Origin: Actinomycetota bacterium
GTDB lineage: Bacteria > Actinomycetota > Acidimicrobiia > IMCC26256 > PALSA-610
Assembly (NCBI GenBank): GCA_005773635.1
Contig: SXHN01000072.1
Coordinates: 1-64,000, forward strand
Length of the DNA stretch: 64,000 nt
Reading direction: 5' to 3'
The first letter of the stretch is position 1; each line of letters begins with the position of its first letter. This document shows positions 9 to 17,677 of the stretch, one piece after another. The translations under genes were made by a program, and so were the position numbers. The notes beneath the pieces are model-generated. The model did not search any database, had not been told where the DNA came from, and saw nothing but the letters and a program-made list of their open reading frames with translations.

Positions 9-998
9 TTACAAATTGCTCTTGTAGTGGTCGTATGGGGCGTCGGGTTCGCCTGTGGGTTCGAAGTGCATGAGTGAATGGTGGGTACGTGTGAGCTTTT
101 CAGCCCACTTCGCTTTCACCCGCATACCCATGCGCACTTCGGCGGCTTCACAACCGCGAATCAACGCCATGATCGTGTTGTCTGCACCATCGAGCAGCAC
201 GTGCGCACTCACAAACGGCACTGGTGGCGCCAGGCCCGGTAAACCCGGAATGTTCACTACACAAAACGTCGTGATGCATCCGGTATCGGCGACGTCCACA
301 TCGATACTGGTGGGCTCTCCAGTTTTGGGGTCTGTGCCACGCGACGCGGCGTACACCTCAGTGGATCCGGGTGCGCGGCCGCCTGCAATTTTGCCCTCTG
401 CCATACCATCGAGGTAGCGGGTCAACGCAACACCCGCGGAAACCGTGTAGTGCAACTTGATCGGCTGCACCAGGCCATTGACCGGACCTTCACCATCGGC
501 ATTGACCGTCCGCGGCGGCGCGGCTACGGACGCCAAACCATCGGGCAACGGTATCCATGCTTCGATGTCGCGCACAGAACCTTTTCGATCGATTTTCCAA
601 TGCGGCATGACCCGCATTCCAACGTGTAGTTCGTCGGGAGAATTCGCAACGACCGCGTGCAACATCGCGGTGTCGGCGCCATCGGGTTTGATCATCGCAA
701 ACGCGAACGGCTGCGAAAATGGTTGCTTCTCCGGGCGCACTCGCCGCACCCAAGTGAAGCTCTCGATGGTTCCCGCCGGACCGACTTCAACCCAATCGGC
801 ATCCGACTCACCAATCGCCTCTGAAGTTTGCGGATCGTACTCAACCGGCGGAACGAGCACGCCGGCCGTTTTGGAACGCACGCCAAGGATGCGTCCATCG
901 CGCAGTCCGGTGAGGTACCGCGAAATCGCTGGCCCAATCGAACGGGTATAGCCGCCCGGGTATTCAACAACATGATCTGCGATCATCGGTTCAGCCAC
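9..998 (-). CDS. Tandem DUF35-type OB-fold protein (Rv3521-like)
   Basis: Encodes 329 residues from a GTG preceded by AAGGAGG with 5 bases between; the reading frame stays open 23 codons further upstream but without such a site. Two similar OB-fold segments (about residues 20-165 and 190-325) each end in a VGMRV/MGMRV strand typical of DUF35 acyl-CoA-binding proteins. The N-terminal zinc ribbon that usually supplies four cysteines is degenerate: the first repeat reads SKTAGVLVPPVEYDP where CxxC pairs are expected. Such proteins partner thiolase-like Ltp proteins in steroid side-chain degradation; Rv3521 of M. tuberculosis is recalled as a similar double-domain protein next to ltp4/ltp3. The gene lies downstream of the acyl-CoA synthetase on the same strand, so co-transcription is likely. 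Partner and substrate are inferred. Confidence 0.72.
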   Translation of the reverse strand: MAEPMIADHVVEYPGGYTRSIGPAISRYLTGLRDGRILGVRSKTAGVLVPPVEYDPQTSEAIGESDADWVEVGPAGTIESFTWVRRVRPEKQPFSQPFAFAMIKPDGADTAMLHAVVANSPDELHVGMRVMPHWKIDRKGSVRDIEAWIPLPDGLASVAAPPRTVNADGEGPVNGLVQPIKLHYTVSAGVALTRYLDGMAEGKIAGGRAPGSTEVYAASRGTDPKTGEPTSIDVDVADTGCITTFCVVNIPGLPGLAPPVPFVSAHVLLDGADNTIMALIRGCEAAEVRMGMRVKAKWAEKLTRTHHSLMHFEPTGEPDAPYDHYKSNL

Positions 999-1079
999 AA
1001 GGGCCTCCTTGGTGGTATCGAAGTAAACAAGCAGGCAGCCAAAGGCTAAGGACCTGCTCAGTGTCAAATGCTGGACTGA

Positions 1080-2624: not shown

Positions 2625-2635
2625 GACTTCGATAG

Positions 2636-2649
2636 TAGAACGTGTTCCA
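2636..2649. promoter_or_regulatory. KstR-type operator, copy 1 (fadD side)
   Basis: TAGAACGTGTTCCA matches the mycobacterial KstR consensus TnnAACnnGTTnnA as I recall it. It lies just upstream of the acyl-CoA synthetase start, where a bound repressor would block the promoter. A perfect second copy lies about 92 bases away on the echA19 side, and a KstR-like TetR gene is about 3.4 kb away. Confidence 0.78.
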
Positions 2650-2727
2650 CTTGTGTGGCAACCGGACCGAACAGCACTGGTCGACGAGAGGCGACCCGGC
2701 ACGGAACGCGCGGGCCTGACACCGGCC

Positions 2728-2741
2728 TAGAACGTGTTCTA
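2728..2741. promoter_or_regulatory. KstR-type operator, copy 2 (echA19 side), perfect palindrome
   Basis: TAGAACGTGTTCTA, extended by one base each side to CTAGAAC-GT-GTTCTAG, is a perfect 7-2-7 inverted repeat 12 bases upstream of the echA19 ATG. It fits TnnAACnnGTTnnA exactly. Together with copy 1 it brackets the divergent promoter region. Confidence 0.82.
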
Positions 2742-2753
2742 GCCTCGCGCCCC

Positions 2754-3566
2754 ATGCCGATCCTTGAAGCTCTCACTACTGCACACTGCACCGTCGAACA
2801 AAACGGCCATGTCGTCACCATGACGATGAACCGTCCCGAAAAAAAGAACGCACTATCTTCGGACATGCTTGCCGGCCTTGTGTTGGCGTACGAATACATC
2901 GACGCGACTCCGGAGGTTCGTTGCGCAATCCTCACCGGAGCCGGCGGAGCATTCTGTTCGGGTATGGACTTGGTGTCGATGGGCCAAGAACCCACCGACC
3001 CTCGGGTCAAAGAAGTGATGGCCCGTGGCAATAGCCCGCACTGGAAAGCACTGTTGCGCGATTACCGGTTGTCGAAACCGCTCGTCGCGGCTGTTGAGGG
3101 CTACGCAGTTGCCGGAGGTACCGAGATTCTTCAGGGCACGGACATACGCGTCGCCGCCGAGACCGCGATCTTCGGTGTGTGGGAAGCAAAACGTGGGCTC
3201 TTCCCACTCGGCGGATCGGCGTGCCGGCTCCCCCGCCAAATTCCTTACACCCAAGCGATGGAAGTGCTGTTGGCGTGCCAACCAATTTCGGCACTAGAAG
3301 CGCAGCGCATGGGGCTCATCGGCCGCGTTGTCCCCGAGGGACAAGCGCTGCACGTTGCACGCGAAATCGCAGACCAAGTCGCGGCGTGCGCGCCGTTGTC
3401 CACGATGGCCATCTTGCGCGCTTGGCGTGAAACTGAACACATGTCCGACTACGACGCGATGCAGCACCAAGACAAGATTGGCTGGGAAGTATTCGCGAGC
3501 GAAGATGCCCAAGAAGGGCCAAAGGCATTCGCTGAAAAACGACCCGCGAATTTCTTGGGCAAATAA
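2754..3566 (+). CDS. echA19: Enoyl-CoA hydratase, EchA19-like
   Basis: 270-residue crotonase-fold enzyme expected to hydrate an alpha,beta-unsaturated acyl-CoA. The oxyanion-hole segments LTGAGGAFCSGMDL and VAGGTEILQGTDIR are clear, and the C-terminus GPKAFAEKRPANF closely matches my recollection of mycobacterial EchA19, a KstR-controlled hydratase acting on steroid side-chain enoyl-CoA. The ATG at 2754 is chosen because the homology begins there and the operator sits immediately upstream; the frame is open to 2487 but that region covers the divergent promoter. It is followed after 3 bases by a thioesterase gene, so the two are probably one transcript. Confidence 0.85.
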   Translation: MPILEALTTAHCTVEQNGHVVTMTMNRPEKKNALSSDMLAGLVLAYEYIDATPEVRCAILTGAGGAFCSGMDLVSMGQEPTDPRVKEVMARGNSPHWKALLRDYRLSKPLVAAVEGYAVAGGTEILQGTDIRVAAETAIFGVWEAKRGLFPLGGSACRLPRQIPYTQAMEVLLACQPISALEAQRMGLIGRVVPEGQALHVAREIADQVAACAPLSTMAILRAWRETEHMSDYDAMQHQDKIGWEVFASEDAQEGPKAFAEKRPANFLGK

Positions 3567-3569
3567 ACC

Positions 3570-4232
3570 GTGAGCGAAGCTGCGCCTGGCTACCCCGACG
3601 AAATCGCGTACGTCAACCCACAGCGAGCCCGGCTCGCGGCATCATTGCGAGCGATGATCGAAACGATGATGACGACGGCCGATGCGACCGACGCTGAACT
3701 GGACGCGGCCGCAAGCGCAATCGAAGCCGCAACATCATCGCTCGCGGGCGCTCGAAACACGACGCCGGGAGCCGGATATTCACCGAGAAGCCACGGCGAC
3801 TATTTGCCCCGATCTCCGGTCGTGGGAGCCGCGTCGCCCATCGCGCCCGGTTCCATCGAATGGCAGATCGAACCCGATCCCGACCGCCCAACGTTGAAGC
3901 GCTGTGTCGCTACTGGAAATATCAACGCGGCATACGAGGGCCCGCCGGGCTACGTTCACGGCGGAGTCATCGCGTTGATCTTCGATGAAATGCTCGGCAT
4001 CATCAACATCTCAAACGGTTGCCCTGGCATGACTGGATCACTCACGATTCGCTATCGCAAACCCACGCCGTTGTACTCGGATTTGCGCTGGGTGGCATGG
4101 ATCAACCGCATGGAAGGGCGCCGCGTGCAATCGACAGCACAGTTGTGGCACGGAGGTGTGCTGTGCGCCGAAGCCGACGGTTTGTTCATTCAACCGCGCG
4201 AAGAGGTTCGTAAGGCATACTTCGGTCCATGA
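3570..4232 (+). CDS. PaaI/hotdog-family acyl-CoA thioesterase
   Basis: 220-residue protein with a hotdog domain in its C-terminal half; the motif YVHGGVIALIFDEM (about residues 128-141) is the usual PaaI-type helix with the catalytic acidic residue, followed by GSLTIRYRKPTPL. The first 80 residues are helical and Ala-rich. It begins with GTG three bases after echA19 and its stop overlaps the next start (ATGA), so it belongs to the echA19 operon. A likely role is hydrolysis of stalled CoA esters to recover free CoA. The substrate is unknown. Confidence 0.82.
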   Translation: MSEAAPGYPDEIAYVNPQRARLAASLRAMIETMMTTADATDAELDAAASAIEAATSSLAGARNTTPGAGYSPRSHGDYLPRSPVVGAASPIAPGSIEWQIEPDPDRPTLKRCVATGNINAAYEGPPGYVHGGVIALIFDEMLGIINISNGCPGMTGSLTIRYRKPTPLYSDLRWVAWINRMEGRRVQSTAQLWHGGVLCAEADGLFIQPREEVRKAYFGP

Positions 4233-4777
4233 AACGCGCGATCCGCGAGCTTGTAGTTGGCGTTACCCTGGCGCTTGCATTCGGAGGCGTTGCCACCGCC
4301 GTACTGAGCGAAAGCTTCGATCAGCAGCCCCGGCTCGCCGTCTCAAACGAGACCGAATCATCAACCAACGGCGCCAATATCGACCCAGACGGCATCGACG
4401 ACCTCGACCGCCCGCTCTTAGTCACACCAAGAGTGCCGACCACCAAAGGCGAACTCCGCTTGGTGAAAGTCTTCGAGCCGTTTGATCTTGCCCGGGGGAG
4501 CGAATCCGCGTACTCAGTGGTCACGCTGGCACAGCTCGGCCAACAGTTCCCGGCGATCGGATTCGTACGACCAGACCGACCGTCGATGAGCGAGGGCGAA
4601 GTGTCGGTACTCATCGCCTCGCCAGAAACATTGATTCTCGCCACCCTCGATGCCACCGGTTGCGTGTGGCTTCACGAACTCGGAGGAGGCCCCGAAATCA
4701 CGCACTCCGAGGATCCGTCGATGTGTTCAGCATCGAATTCGCCAATCGATGGGTGGGCAGGGATCACCTCGGCGTGA
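4229..4777 (+). CDS. Hypothetical membrane-anchored or secreted protein
   Basis: 182 residues. An N-terminal basic start followed by a hydrophobic stretch (about residues 9-27) looks like a signal anchor or signal peptide; the remainder is acidic and soluble. There are Cys residues near the C-terminus that could form a disulfide outside the cell. The start ATG overlaps the thioesterase stop by 4 bases, so translation is coupled. I do not recognise a domain. Its position inside a fatty-acyl/steroid operon is unexplained. Confidence 0.6.
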   Translation: MKRAIRELVVGVTLALAFGGVATAVLSESFDQQPRLAVSNETESSTNGANIDPDGIDDLDRPLLVTPRVPTTKGELRLVKVFEPFDLARGSESAYSVVTLAQLGQQFPAIGFVRPDRPSMSEGEVSVLIASPETLILATLDATGCVWLHELGGGPEITHSEDPSMCSASNSPIDGWAGITSA

Positions 4778-4789
4778 CATGCTGCAGCT

Positions 4790-6040
4790 ATGACATCACT
4801 CAACCAGCAAGGCCGCAGCAAAGAGGAACTCCTAGCCGCGCTCACTACCAAACGCGCCCGCGATGCGCGTTGGCAAGACGGACGAACGTTCGGCATGGTC
4901 TATGACGGCGGCCCTGAAGTTCACGCGGTCGCAGAAGCGGTCGCCAAGATGTACTTGCACGAAAACGCCCTCAATACCATTGCATTCCCAAGCTTGGGCG
5001 AAATCCAAAGCGAAGTGTGCAGCTGGACCGCAGCACTGTTTCACGGCGAAACTGCAGCGGGATTCATGACGAGCGGCGGCACCGAGTCGATTCTGTGCGC
5101 GGTCAAAGCCGCGCGCGAACGGGCAAAAGCCGAACGAGGAATAACCGCTCCGGAAATCGTGCTCGCGGAAACCGCACACGCCGCGTTCCACAAAGCTGCG
5201 TACTACTTCGGATTCCAAGTCCACAAGGTCAAAGTCCGCGACGACTTTCGCGCCGACGTCGAAGCCATGGCAGACTGCGTCAACGCAAACACCGCACTCG
5301 TGGTTGGTAGCGCCCCACAGTATCCACAAGGTGTTATCGACCCAATCCCCGACCTCGCGCAACTCGCGCTGAGCGTTGGCGCGTCGATGCACGTCGACGC
5401 GTGCATGGGCGGCTTCGTCTTGCCCTTCATGGAACAGCTGGGGTTCGACGTGTTGCCGTGGGACTTTCGAGTCGAGGGCGTCACGACAATTTCCGCAGAC
5501 ATCCACAAACTCGGATACGCACCGAAGGGTGCTTCGGTGATCCTGCACGCCAACAAACAGCTCCGCCAGTACCAAACCTTCATGTTTGACCAGTGGCTCG
5601 GCGGCTTTTATGCGTCGCCCAACATTCAAGGCACACGGTCTGGGCTCCCAATGGCGTGCGCTTGGGCAGTGATGCAACACCTCGGCATCGAGGGCTACCA
5701 ACGCCTCACGAAGCTCACCATCGACACCCGAGCCACCATGGTCGCCGGAGTACGAGCGATTGACGGACTCATGGTTTTGGGCGAACCTGAGGCACAGCTT
5801 GTGGCAATCGCCACGCGTCCGCACAGCGATCTCGATGTGTTCGCAGTCGGCGACGCACTCAATCGCCGAGGCGGGTGGTTTCACGACCGTCAAACCCCTC
5901 CGGACACGCTGCACGCGACCGTGTCGGCAGGAAACGCACCAGTAATTGATCTGTACCTTGAGGATCTCGCCGCTTCAGTTGCTGAAGTGCAAGGCCTTCG
6001 CGCCGAAAATCGCAGCACAAGCTACGCGACGTTGGAATAG
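4790..6040 (+). CDS. PLP-dependent lyase/decarboxylase, sphingosine-1-phosphate-lyase-like
   Basis: 416-residue fold-type I PLP enzyme of the group II decarboxylase/S1P-lyase family. Seen in order: GGTESILCAVKAAR (cofactor phosphate loop), ETAHAAFHKAAYYFG, the Asp/Ala motif HVDACMGG, and the Schiff-base lysine K240 in SADIHKLGYAPKG. S1P-lyase relatives perform retro-aldol cleavage of phosphorylated long-chain amino alcohols. It lies 12 bases after the preceding gene and just before the KstR-like regulator. Whether it acts on a lipid linked to this pathway is not known. Confidence 0.82.
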   Translation: MTSLNQQGRSKEELLAALTTKRARDARWQDGRTFGMVYDGGPEVHAVAEAVAKMYLHENALNTIAFPSLGEIQSEVCSWTAALFHGETAAGFMTSGGTESILCAVKAARERAKAERGITAPEIVLAETAHAAFHKAAYYFGFQVHKVKVRDDFRADVEAMADCVNANTALVVGSAPQYPQGVIDPIPDLAQLALSVGASMHVDACMGGFVLPFMEQLGFDVLPWDFRVEGVTTISADIHKLGYAPKGASVILHANKQLRQYQTFMFDQWLGGFYASPNIQGTRSGLPMACAWAVMQHLGIEGYQRLTKLTIDTRATMVAGVRAIDGLMVLGEPEAQLVAIATRPHSDLDVFAVGDALNRRGGWFHDRQTPPDTLHATVSAGNAPVIDLYLEDLAASVAEVQGLRAENRSTSYATLE

Positions 6041-6084
6041 TCAAACGTGCGTCGCCTACAACGCCTCGTTTACGCTGCCACGTC

Positions 6085-6699
6085 ATGACCGAGAGCAGCG
6101 CTGCGACGAGCGACCTCGCAATTCCTTCAGCCCGCCGCACCGGCACGCGGGCTGCAGAAACAGTCGCCCGAAAACAACGGATCTTGCGCGCGGCAGTGTT
6201 GATGGCTCGCGAAGGCGGCTACGACGGCGTGCAGATGCGAGATGTCGCAGCCCACGCCGAAGTGGCGCTCGGCACCTTGTATCGCCATTACGCATCCAAA
6301 GACCAGCTTCTCTTGGCCGTCATGCTGGATCAAACCGAAACGTTGCGGCAACGACTTGAACAACACCCAGTACCCGGCGGTTCGGCTGCAGAGCGAGTGA
6401 GCGAAGTTCTGCGCAGAGCCTGTCGGTCGCTTGAGCGCGAGCGCAACGTCACCGGTGCGTTAGTGCGCGCGATGTTCGCCACGGAACCCGAGGTCGCGCA
6501 AATCAAGGCCGACGTCCATGACGAAATGAAGTCGATTATTGCTACTGCAATCGGCGACGAAGAAGCAAACCTCGACGCCATCGTCGACGTGCTCGGGCAC
6601 GTTTGGCTTTCCACAATGGCATTCTGGGTCGGCGGCGTTTCCCCAGAAACCACGATGAATGAACGGCTTGCGACCGCCGCGCACTTGCTGCTGCGGTAA
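6085..6699 (+). CDS. kstR: TetR-family regulator, KstR-like
   Basis: 204-residue TetR repressor. The helix-turn-helix region (about residues 32-75) contains GGYDGVQMRDVAAHA and LGTLYRHYASKDQLL, which strongly resembles mycobacterial KstR as I remember it (GGYEAVQMR, VGTLYRYFPSK). The C-terminal ligand domain keeps a DVLGHVWLSTMAFW segment like KstR's DVWLSNLLAWL. KstR represses cholesterol catabolism and is released by 3-oxo-cholestenoyl-CoA. Two matching TAGAAC/GTTC boxes occur at 2.6-2.7 kb, supporting the name. I see no KstR box directly upstream of this gene, so autoregulation is not evident. It converges with the LLM gene. Confidence 0.75.
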   Translation: MTESSAATSDLAIPSARRTGTRAAETVARKQRILRAAVLMAREGGYDGVQMRDVAAHAEVALGTLYRHYASKDQLLLAVMLDQTETLRQRLEQHPVPGGSAAERVSEVLRRACRSLERERNVTGALVRAMFATEPEVAQIKADVHDEMKSIIATAIGDEEANLDAIVDVLGHVWLSTMAFWVGGVSPETTMNERLATAAHLLLR

Positions 6700-8713: not shown

Positions 8714-9900
8714 CAGGTCGCCCGAGTGCGAGGTTCGACGCGGACAAACACGATTTCCAATCGACCATCGATAAAGGTTGCAGTCGTCGCTTGGCGGTTA
8801 CGAAGACTGTCGGGCAACACGATGGCTCGACGATACGGGCCGAGCGCGATCAGCACTTCATCGACGCTCTGAGCCAACTCCACATCGTGCTTGCCGGAAA
8901 AGGGTAGATGCACCGAAAGCACGAACTTGTCGCCGCGGGCTTCGACGTGCAACGGATCAATCTCCGCTAACCGTTGCGCCGGATCGTTCACACCGTATAT
9001 TGCGCTCGAGAACCCATGAAGTTCTTCAACTCCAATAACCTCGCGTTGCACCAATGGCACTCGCAATACGGGCAACGGTTCAAAGGCCTCATCGATGATT
9101 GCCAATTGGGCCTTTTGATCAATACGCCACTCGTCGAAAAACGGGTCGGAAACCGCGTCCGGCAACATGCGATTCACAACCACCGCATCGACGTGGTAGC
9201 CAAAGAGCGAAAGGTACGTGAAAGTACGGCGAGCTTCGGCGACCACCATGCGTTGAGGGTTCACTACGAGTCGAGCACTCGTAACCTCACCGTCGATCAA
9301 CAAGTCGCGCACGCCATCGAGTCGGTCATAGAAACGTCGTATCGCTTCGAAGACTTCGGTGCCGGCAATCGGCATATTGGTTAGGCGGCTTACAAACGGT
9401 CGAGCAAACTTTGTGAGTTTGCGTTGGCGTTCGAACAGCTTGCCCATATACCAACTCAACACATCAGGCAGCGAAAGTAATCGCAGGGTCTCCGCGGTCG
9501 GAGCGCAATCCACAACCACAACGTCAAAGTTGCCCGACTCTGCGTGGTCTTTGATATCAGCGAGTGCGAACACTTCGTCGAGTCCTGGTACGACTGCGAG
9601 CTCCTCAGCTTCGACAGCATCGGCTCCGACCCATCCGAGCATCTCTACCGCGAAATCACGGATTTCAGCCCATGCCTCTTCGAAGCGAATGCGGGCATCT
9701 AGTTGCTGCGCAACCAAATTCACTTCGATCATGGTTGGTTCGTCGTGCAACTGCACGTCGAAGGCATCCGCGAGAGAATGCGCAGGATCGGTCGACAAGA
9801 TAATCGTGCGCAATCCGCTGCGAGCACAGGCGACGGCTGTCGACGCGGCGACGGTGGTTTTACCGACCCCACCTTTACCTGTAAACAGCAAAATCCGCAT
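8713..9900 (-). CDS. ArsA/Get3-like ATPase
   Basis: 395 residues. The deviant Walker A FTGKGGVGKTTVAAST near the N-terminus, DPAHSLADAFD (switch I) and VVVDCAPTAETLRLLSLPD (switch II) define an anion-pump/Get3-type ATPase. The C-terminus (about residues 310-390) looks like the HSP20-like domain found in actinobacterial ArsA paralogues. The ATG at 9900 is chosen because homology starts at MRILLF. The order PimB, membrane protein, SRPBCC, ArsA resembles M. tuberculosis Rv2188c-Rv2184c as I recall it. Arsenite export is unlikely in this context; a role in membrane-protein or envelope-lipid handling is more plausible but unproven. Confidence 0.85.
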   Translation of the reverse strand: MRILLFTGKGGVGKTTVAASTAVACARSGLRTIILSTDPAHSLADAFDVQLHDEPTMIEVNLVAQQLDARIRFEEAWAEIRDFAVEMLGWVGADAVEAEELAVVPGLDEVFALADIKDHAESGNFDVVVVDCAPTAETLRLLSLPDVLSWYMGKLFERQRKLTKFARPFVSRLTNMPIAGTEVFEAIRRFYDRLDGVRDLLIDGEVTSARLVVNPQRMVVAEARRTFTYLSLFGYHVDAVVVNRMLPDAVSDPFFDEWRIDQKAQLAIIDEAFEPLPVLRVPLVQREVIGVEELHGFSSAIYGVNDPAQRLAEIDPLHVEARGDKFVLSVHLPFSGKHDVELAQSVDEVLIALGPYRRAIVLPDSLRNRQATTATFIDGRLEIVFVRVEPRTRAT

Positions 9901-16055: not shown

Positions 16056-16065
16056 GCACGTGACA

Positions 16066-17220
16066 ATGAGCATCAAAGACTTGACCGCGGTTGTGGGCAT
16101 TGGTCAAACCGAATTCGGCAGGCTCGAACAGAATGAACTTACGCTCGCTTGCCGAGCAATCAGCCTGGCCCTCGATGATGCAGGTATCGCACCGCACGAA
16201 GTCGATGGCTTGGCGAGCTCAACCATGGAACCGAATCGCGAAGTCGAAGTTGCCCGTAACGTTGGCCTCGGCGACATCACTTTTTTTAGCCAGGTTGGCT
16301 ATGGCGGTGGCGCAGCCTGCGGCATTATTGGGCACGCGGCGATGGCGGTGGCGACGGGGCAATGCAACGTCGCAGTTGCGTGGCGCGGCCGCAAACGCGC
16401 AGCAAAGTCGAGCCGACCGTGGACCCAAGCGAGTACCCGTATCGCCGACAAAAACATGTGGAGCCGCCCGTTTGGCATGCTGCGACCCGTCGATGAGATC
16501 GCGATGCTGACGCGTCGATACATGCATGAATACGGCGCCACTCGCGACCACCTTGCGAACGTCGCGCTCGCCTCGCGTGCCCACGCCAACCGAAATCCCA
16601 ACGCTGCGATGTACACGAAACCCATGACTCGCGATGCGTACATGGACTCGCGGTGGATCAGCGAACCCCTGTGCCTGTTCGACAACTGCCTCGAAAGCGA
16701 CGGTGCGCTCGCAGTCGTCATCGCGCGGCGCGATCGGGCGGCAGATACCCGCCATGAACCCGTCATTGTGCACGCGGTTGCGCAAGGGCTGCCACCGCAA
16801 CACCAAACGATGACCAACTTCTTCAACGACGACCCGTTGCGCGGCCCCGCATGGGTGACCGCCCGCAAGCTCTGGGAACGCGCCGACGTTGGGCCCCGCG
16901 ATGTCAATGTGGCGCAGCTGTACGACGCGTTCAGCCCGCTCATTCCTTTGTCGCTCGAAGGCTACGGATTTTGCGAACGAGGCGAGGGCGGTGCGTTCAC
17001 CGACAACGGCAACACGCAATGGGGAACGGGCGCCTTGCCCGTCAACACCAGTGGCGGAGGAATGAGCGAGGCATACGTACACGGTTTCAATTTGATTGTT
17101 GAGGGAGTGCGCCAGATTCGCGGCACCTCTACGAGCCAAGTTGAAAATGCCCAGGTGTCGCTCGTAACTAGCGGCGAAGGCGTCCCAACATCCGCGGTCC
17201 TGTTCACAAAGGCGCGGTGA
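16066..17220 (+). CDS. ltp2: Thiolase-like lipid-transfer protein, Ltp2-type aldolase
   Basis: 384 residues. The ATG at 16066 is preferred over GTG at 16060 because GGTGAG lies 9 bases before it. The protein follows the Ltp2 pattern as I recall it: AVVGIGQTEFG, EVEVARNVGLGDITFFSQ, YGGGAAC, LYDAFSPL and SEAYVHGFN. Ltp2 with a DUF35 partner cleaves a beta-hydroxy acyl-CoA by retro-aldol reaction, releasing propionyl-CoA from the cholesterol C17 side chain. Tyrosines in LYDAF and EAYVH correspond to those I recall as important in Ltp2. The gene is followed 4 bases later by a DUF35 gene, the expected partner. The exact steroid substrate is inferred. Confidence 0.8.
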   Translation: MSIKDLTAVVGIGQTEFGRLEQNELTLACRAISLALDDAGIAPHEVDGLASSTMEPNREVEVARNVGLGDITFFSQVGYGGGAACGIIGHAAMAVATGQCNVAVAWRGRKRAAKSSRPWTQASTRIADKNMWSRPFGMLRPVDEIAMLTRRYMHEYGATRDHLANVALASRAHANRNPNAAMYTKPMTRDAYMDSRWISEPLCLFDNCLESDGALAVVIARRDRAADTRHEPVIVHAVAQGLPPQHQTMTNFFNDDPLRGPAWVTARKLWERADVGPRDVNVAQLYDAFSPLIPLSLEGYGFCERGEGGAFTDNGNTQWGTGALPVNTSGGGMSEAYVHGFNLIVEGVRQIRGTSTSQVENAQVSLVTSGEGVPTSAVLFTKAR

Positions 17221-17224
17221 CGAC

Positions 17225-17677
17225 GTGTTGGAAACCAACGATGATCGATTGTTCGTCCCCGACCTCGATGATGATGACTCCCGCCCGTTTTGGGAAGGCT
17301 GCGCCCTCGGCGAACTGCGAGTGCAAGCGTGCGCGAGTTGCTCGCAATGGCGGATGCCACCACGCCCAATGTGTCCGCGTTGCCGGTCGCTCGACGTTAC
17401 CTGGGTGGTTTCCTCAGGCCGCGGAACCGTGTGGTCGTTCGTGGTTCCGCATGCCCCCCTGCTTCCGGGCTACACAGAACTCGCTCCGTACAACGTCATC
17501 GTCGTCGAGCTCAATGAGAATTCGTTGATTCGTTTCGTCGGCAACCTGGTCCTCGGCCCCAACGCACCAATCAACAGCATCGACCCAGCAACCATTGCCA
17601 TCGGCGAGGCCGTTGCCGTCGTATTTCAGCGCGTCAATGGCATCGCTCTCCCCTTTTGGATCCGCGCACCGAGCTGA
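17225..17677 (+). CDS. DUF35 zinc-ribbon OB-fold protein, partner of the Ltp2-like aldolase
   Basis: 150 residues from a GTG. The N-terminal rubredoxin-like ribbon is intact: CASC and CPRC pairs near residues 36-54, followed by the linker GRGTVWSFVVPHAP and the OB fold ending in VAVVFQRVNG. In steroid-degrading actinobacteria the DUF35 domain of ChsH2 binds Ltp2 and is needed for its aldolase activity. Here it is a stand-alone protein rather than fused to a MaoC domain. A strong hairpin terminator follows. Confidence 0.85.
   Translation: MLETNDDRLFVPDLDDDDSRPFWEGCALGELRVQACASCSQWRMPPRPMCPRCRSLDVTWVVSSGRGTVWSFVVPHAPLLPGYTELAPYNVIVVELNENSLIRFVGNLVLGPNAPINSIDPATIAIGEAVAVVFQRVNGIALPFWIRAPS

Follow-up and report, generated by a model that had tools for sequence, protein, structure and literature searches.

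A pair of candidate KstR-type operators on divergent fadD and echA19 promoters in Acidimicrobiia, and the small side-chain regulon to which they would belong

In the stretch of Acidimicrobiia DNA analysed here (64,000 nucleotides, called the window below), two palindromic boxes separate a gene for an acyl-CoA ligase, fadD, from a divergently oriented gene for an EchA19-type enoyl-CoA hydratase. Sequence comparisons make it quite probable that these boxes are a pair of operators for a KstR-family repressor, placed on back-to-back leaderless promoters that would be repressed within a small side-chain regulon. KstR control has been demonstrated for mycobacteria; for some further members of the class Actinomycetes, for example Nocardioides, it has been predicted. 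We found no open-licence literature on Acidimicrobiia with KstR or EchA19, and two surveys of steroid degraders do not mention Acidimicrobiia in their main text. The operator and the side-chain regulon are very probably conserved in Acidimicrobiia, as judged from the genomes compared below, and the data suggest a KstR circuit of greater age and wider spread than the form known from mycobacteria.

Results

Each box overlaps a predicted promoter

The gap between the start codons of fadD (ATG at complement 2624) and echA19 (ATG at 2754) measures 129 bp and contains both boxes, TAGAACGTGTTCCA at 2636-2649 and TAGAACGTGTTCTA at 2728-2741, where the first-pass annotation had placed them. The candidate operator for fadD, on the reverse strand, is TGGAACACGTTCTA when read towards fadD and has one mismatch to the palindrome TAGAACnnGTTCTA; that for echA19, on the forward strand, is exact. 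Towards echA19 we read TAGAACGTGTTC-TAGCCT-cgcgcccc-ATG, with the predicted -10 hexamer TAGCCT at 2740-2745 (forward strand) and the ATG 8 nt on. Towards fadD we read TGGAACACGTTC-TACTAT-cgaagtc-ATG, with the predicted hexamer TACTAT at 2632-2637 (reverse strand), 7 nt before the start codon. In both promoters, the box and a TAnnnT hexamer share two bases, which end the former and open the latter, and the ATG lies 7-8 nt beyond the hexamer. From this spacing we infer the layout of a leaderless actinobacterial promoter, and the two boxes are candidate operators, one for each divergent promoter. A composite pattern made of a box half, the -10 hexamer and the start codon gave 47 matches in the 14 genomes of the family, against one in the reversed control, and five against none when only the genome of the window was considered.

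In the KstR regulon of Mycobacterium tuberculosis and M. smegmatis (Kendall et al. 2007, PMC1995591), the operator TAGAACnnGTTCTA likewise overlaps the -10 region, partly so in the case of the mycobacterial kstR box. The Acidimicrobiia arrangement differs from the mycobacterial one in having two boxes, one per predicted leaderless promoter, and in the small size of the regulon.

Genes of the divergent locus

On the reverse strand, fadD (1080-2624) encodes an acyl-CoA ligase which is FadD4-like (NCBIfam FadD4, 487 bits, under the cut-off of 850). Its identification as FadD19 was rejected, with 201 bits against a cut-off of 543 for PRK07798, the family to which FadD19 presumably belongs. Twelve bp past fadD, and co-directional with it, lies the gene for a DUF35/ChsH2-C OB-fold protein (9-1067, reverse strand; Pfam OB_ChsH2_C). 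The fadD operon of relatives continues after DUF35 with PRK07937 and PRK08313 thiolase genes, and in some of them it also holds the gene for KshA. Elsewhere in the window lies a second thiolase locus (16060-17677), devoid of a KstR-type box, in which a gene for a lipid-transfer thiolase of the PRK07855 type precedes a small gene that has no NCBIfam match.

On the forward strand, the hydratase (2754-3566) resembles EchA19, as had been proposed: its best PDB matches are EchA19 (4f47, 6wyi), with 282 and 281 bits, the next one reaching 197 bits, and it passes PRK07799 with 364 bits for a cut-off of 316. Like EchA19, it is encoded divergently beside an acyl-CoA ligase, but with 342.8 bits it stays under the 400-bit cut-off of the NCBIfam EchA19 equivalog. 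It is followed on the same strand by the genes for a hotdog thioesterase (3570-4232; Pfam 4HBT), 3 bp from echA19, for a small protein with a hydrophobic N-terminal segment and no match in NCBIfam (4229-4777; 4-bp overlap with the thioesterase gene), for a PLP enzyme of the sphingosine-1-phosphate (S1P) lyase group (4790-6040; PDB S1P lyases, E about 1e-92) and for a TetR regulator of the KstR family, paralogue clade B (6085-6699). The place of the S1P-lyase-like gene in the echA19 operon is kept in the relatives' operons examined.

In M. tuberculosis, an EMSA-positive KstR box is located between fadD19 and echA19 (Rv3515c/Rv3516) (PMC1995591). A box in the divergent fadD/echA19 promoter is a feature that both systems have in common; in the genome of the window the ligase beside echA19 is FadD4-like, a FadD19-type ligase adjoins the regulator encoded on contig C47 and the operon includes the S1P-lyase-like gene.

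The tight palindrome marks side-chain genes across the genome

The loose motif TnnAACnnGTTnnA, with which the first-pass annotation had proposed to scan the genome, has four matches in the window against 0.56 expected, a number attained by none of 100 shuffles. Over the whole 3.56-Mb genome, however, it is not enriched: with 42 sites against 71 in the reversed control and a Markov expectation of 31, the loose consensus has no genome-wide signal, and it was rejected as a regulon finder at that scale. The tight palindrome TAGAACnnGTTCTA sits in promoters above chance level, with three exact sites in 3.56 Mb (0.017 expected) and ten sites with at most one mismatch (1.15 expected). As a positive control, an exact box was present upstream of all seven mycobacterial KstR genes found.

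Nine of the ten sites precede sterol side-chain or lipid genes or KstR-like regulators, two of the nine being those of fadD and echA19 in the window. Contig C47 contributes a KstR-like gene together with a ligase of the FadD19 type (PRK07798, 688 bits). On C18, another KstR-like gene stands divergent to an F420 oxidoreductase of the Rv3520c type (TIGR03559, 418 bits), and on C32 the genes are two divergent luciferase-like oxidoreductases. On C60, the gene is that of a P450 (C60:34863) with CYP125 as its best solved relatives (495 and 352 bits), CYP124 reaching 343, and a two-mismatch box stands ahead of an aldehyde dehydrogenase on this contig. On C104 we found a pair of ChsE4/ChsE5-like acyl-CoA dehydrogenases, the best or second-best solved relatives of which are both chains of 4x28, which we take to be ChsE4-ChsE5, and of Tcur3483/Tcur3481; one member scores 469 (to 4x28_A) and 389 bits, its partner 211 and 268 bits. 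One more acyl-CoA dehydrogenase follows the C105 site. The one-mismatch site at C110:62636 lies within a RecF-like gene; it was counted as chance and rejected as a member of the regulon.

Boxes are thus found at likely orthologues of the known regulon members echA19, cyp125 (presumably Rv3545c), the FadE pair, FadD19 and Rv3520c; we also take Rv3504 to be fadE26. As in the mycobacterial regulon, there are boxes at CYP125, FadE pair, Rv3520c-type and kstR genes, and in M. tuberculosis those of Rv3520c/Rv3521, Rv3503c/Rv3504, Rv3545c and kstR are EMSA-positive as well (PMC1995591).

The C32 box (C32:34097-34123 in this genome, G000; 9598-9624 of locus L034) is exact and separates two divergent genes for luciferase-like F420/FMN oxidoreductases. 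Such a divergent pair with boxes recurs in relatives (L214, L226 and L232).

The boxes are conserved in the family

We compared 14 genomes of one Acidimicrobiia family, that of the window and 13 others. Each of these others encodes a single close orthologue of EchA19, 74-90% identical, and a box upstream of echA19 (at most two mismatches, within 130 bp) was seen in 13 of the 14. The sole genome devoid of it, G011, has an exact box at its fadD. At least two boxes occur in the gap in six of the 14 genomes. In G004, which is of the same genus, inserted genes separate fadD from echA19 and each of the two retains its own box with the same geometry. Beyond the 14 genomes, a freshwater relative (L143) has an exact box ahead of echA19. 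The KstR-type nature of the boxes, also put forward in the first-pass annotation, is supported by the enrichment of the tight palindrome, by its persistence before echA19 in the family and by its presence before other likely orthologues of mycobacterial KstR-regulon genes.

In genome G002 (L093), GAGAACGCGTTCTC occurs twice in tandem with a spacing of 22 bp, 119-141 bp upstream of echA19 and next to a third KstR-like box.

Ring-degradation genes are found in relatives only in part

KshA (PF19298) is present in nine of the 14 family genomes, in several of which its gene adjoins this locus. The relatives' proteins have KshA structures as their best match (E 1e-47), and their kshA promoters display the same box and start geometry. 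The PF19298 profile gave no match for KshA in the genome of the window or in its congener. HsaC was above the cut-off in none of the 14 genomes, these two included, with weaker matches in two genomes, and the positive control recognised it in five of five Mycobacteriaceae-type genomes with about 550 bits or more. Since the assembly of the window is about 95% complete, one missing gene could be a gap; it is unlikely that the absence of KshA from both genomes of the genus and that of HsaC from the whole family are all gaps. For complete cholesterol degradation via the known 9,10-seco route, we find no support here.

In this respect too, the genome differs from those of mycobacteria. The first-pass annotation had suggested that the mycobacterial cholesterol switch is conserved; this very probably holds for the operator and the side-chain regulon and fails for the ring-degradation genes KshA and HsaC, not found in the genus, and for the ligase, which is not FadD19. 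"KstR-type sterol side-chain regulon" is therefore a better term, and, for the same reason, a sterol substrate is not proved. In M. tuberculosis, fadD19 and echA19 are cholesterol-induced but dispensable for growth on cholesterol (PMC8196197), so that gene content alone proves no substrate.

Three KstR-family regulators

The genome encodes three proteins of the KstR family, on C47, in the window and on C18, and these three paralogues are a further difference from the mycobacterial regulon. Against the KstR model NF033703 they score 146.2, 129.6 and 98.3 bits, respectively, all below the 280-bit equivalog cut-off, whereas mycobacterial KstR reaches 332-340 bits. The window protein is made of TetR_N and TetR_C_20 domains (Pfam) and its closest solved structures are those of KstR (Rv3574; PDB 5cw8, 5fmp, 5ua1 and others, E 2e-21). 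In its HTH, 26 of 47 aligned residues are identical to KstR and the motif VQMRxVAxxAxVAxGTLYR is conserved. The first-pass annotation was thus right that the gene at 6085-6699 codes for a TetR protein most like KstR with a common recognition region, and the conserved recognition segment is another likeness to the mycobacterial system.

Its expected grouping with KstR was nevertheless contradicted by the phylogeny. In a tree with TetR outgroups, the KstR-type proteins of mycobacteria and Streptomyces group with the C47 clade (97/96), and a union of the window clade with KstR was rejected (p-AU 0.0044); as the outgroup branches are long and the rooting rests on them, this evidence is good but not final. 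The window protein was accordingly rejected as KstR orthologue by both score and tree. By these comparisons, the C47 protein is the candidate KstR orthologue and the window TetR counts as a paralogue within the KstR family.

The genes of the C47 and C18 paralogues have boxes of their own. Directly upstream of the window tetR (6041-6084) there is no box; this gene follows a tightly packed directon that starts from the box at 2728, and its transcription probably also begins at the echA19 promoter.

In other genera, clade B genes (L045, L048-L051, L053, L056-L058 and L060) have an operator of their own, TGCAACnnGTTCTA, which is absent in the genus of the window. KstR-like genes outside the class (L120, L122 and L123) have the same TGCAACnnGTTCTA-type variant, and in Streptomyces-like genomes (L112-L119) all KstR-like genes have TAGAACAAGTTTCA upstream, a conserved diverged operator.

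Discussion

We propose that a dimeric TetR repressor bound to each box would cover the -10 hexamer and exclude RNA polymerase. Two units would be repressed in this manner, fadD and, downstream of it, the DUF35 and thiolase genes on one side and echA19-thioesterase-ORF-S1P-lyase-like-tetR on the other, and, by analogy with mycobacteria, the repressor would be released once a sterol-derived acyl-CoA accumulates. As the last gene of the echA19 directon, and one that lacks its own box, the local tetR would be autoregulated via the box at 2728. The regulon may serve to oxidise a sterol-like side chain, activate it and degrade it by beta-oxidation, with a CYP125-like P450, an aldehyde dehydrogenase, a FadD19-type ligase, ChsE4/E5-like dehydrogenases, EchA19 and thiolases. 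We regard the candidate KstR orthologue on C47 as the probable main repressor; the window TetR would be a second repressor of the same family that may share its sites.

Alternatively, both boxes could be bound and controlled by the window TetR alone, acting locally on its operon, with a separate regulon for the C47 protein. We consider this rather unlikely, although the window tetR is adjacent to echA19 and co-directional with it, the clade B gene keeps a place near echA19 in most genomes of the family and the box centres of this genome differ, GT/AC at the window versus AG/CT at C47, C18 and C32. Indeed, distant genes share the box and need a trans-acting regulator that serves them too. In addition, the 5' half of the clade B operator of other genera is unlike the TAGAAC, TGGAAC and TGAAAC halves at echA19, fadD and kshA, which resemble the operators of clade A and of true KstR, so that clade B may not be the binder of the boxes at 2636 and 2728. 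However, M. tuberculosis KstR also binds one box with a TGCAAC half (Rv0551c/Rv0552) (PMC1995591), and half-sites alone therefore cannot assign the protein. Taking these points together, the C47 protein, alone or jointly with the window TetR, is the most likely occupant of both boxes.

Another reading concerns the substrate: an old KstR-type repressor and side-chain enzymes would be used for an iso-branched or isoprenoid acyl compound, for example hopanoid- or terpenoid-derived, and not for sterols. The enzymes of the regulon match steroid enzymes best (CYP125, ChsE4/E5-type acyl-CoA dehydrogenases and EchA19, with KshA in relatives), which speaks against it; the lack of KshA and HsaC in the genus, the absence or weakness of HsaC family-wide while the control is positive, the FadD4-like window ligase and the S1P-lyase-like enzyme in the operon speak for it, and we hold it to be possible but on balance unlikely. 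That the boxes are chance palindromes, or the operator of an unrelated regulator, is highly improbable. Such a view could only appeal to the loose consensus, common and not enriched genome-wide, and it is already contradicted by the conservation data: the tight motif is enriched, its position is kept in nearly all the family genomes, the -10 geometry is fixed and boxes stand at KstR-like genes themselves.

Since likely orthologous side-chain genes of another class carry this operator too, the age of the circuit becomes testable, and the finding points to uncultured Acidimicrobiia as degraders of sterol, or sterol-like, side chains. It also sets a conserved core, made of side-chain genes and repressor, apart from a later or lost ring-degradation part. 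Tentatively, the Acidimicrobiia KstR circuit might be an early-branching one, a compact leaderless side-chain regulon with two or three paralogous repressors and partly different operators; side-chain control would then have preceded, or been separated from, the complete cholesterol pathway, some genera having no known ring-opening genes.

Further genes with a box and a predicted leaderless start were seen in related genomes. Amidohydrolase-like proteins with FDADNHYYE near the start (L204, L225, L228 and L234) are possible members of the regulon, and a protein of about 430 residues with REWLLIGHLQDRVGMPLVL near its start shows the same arrangement in two genomes (L203 and L231).
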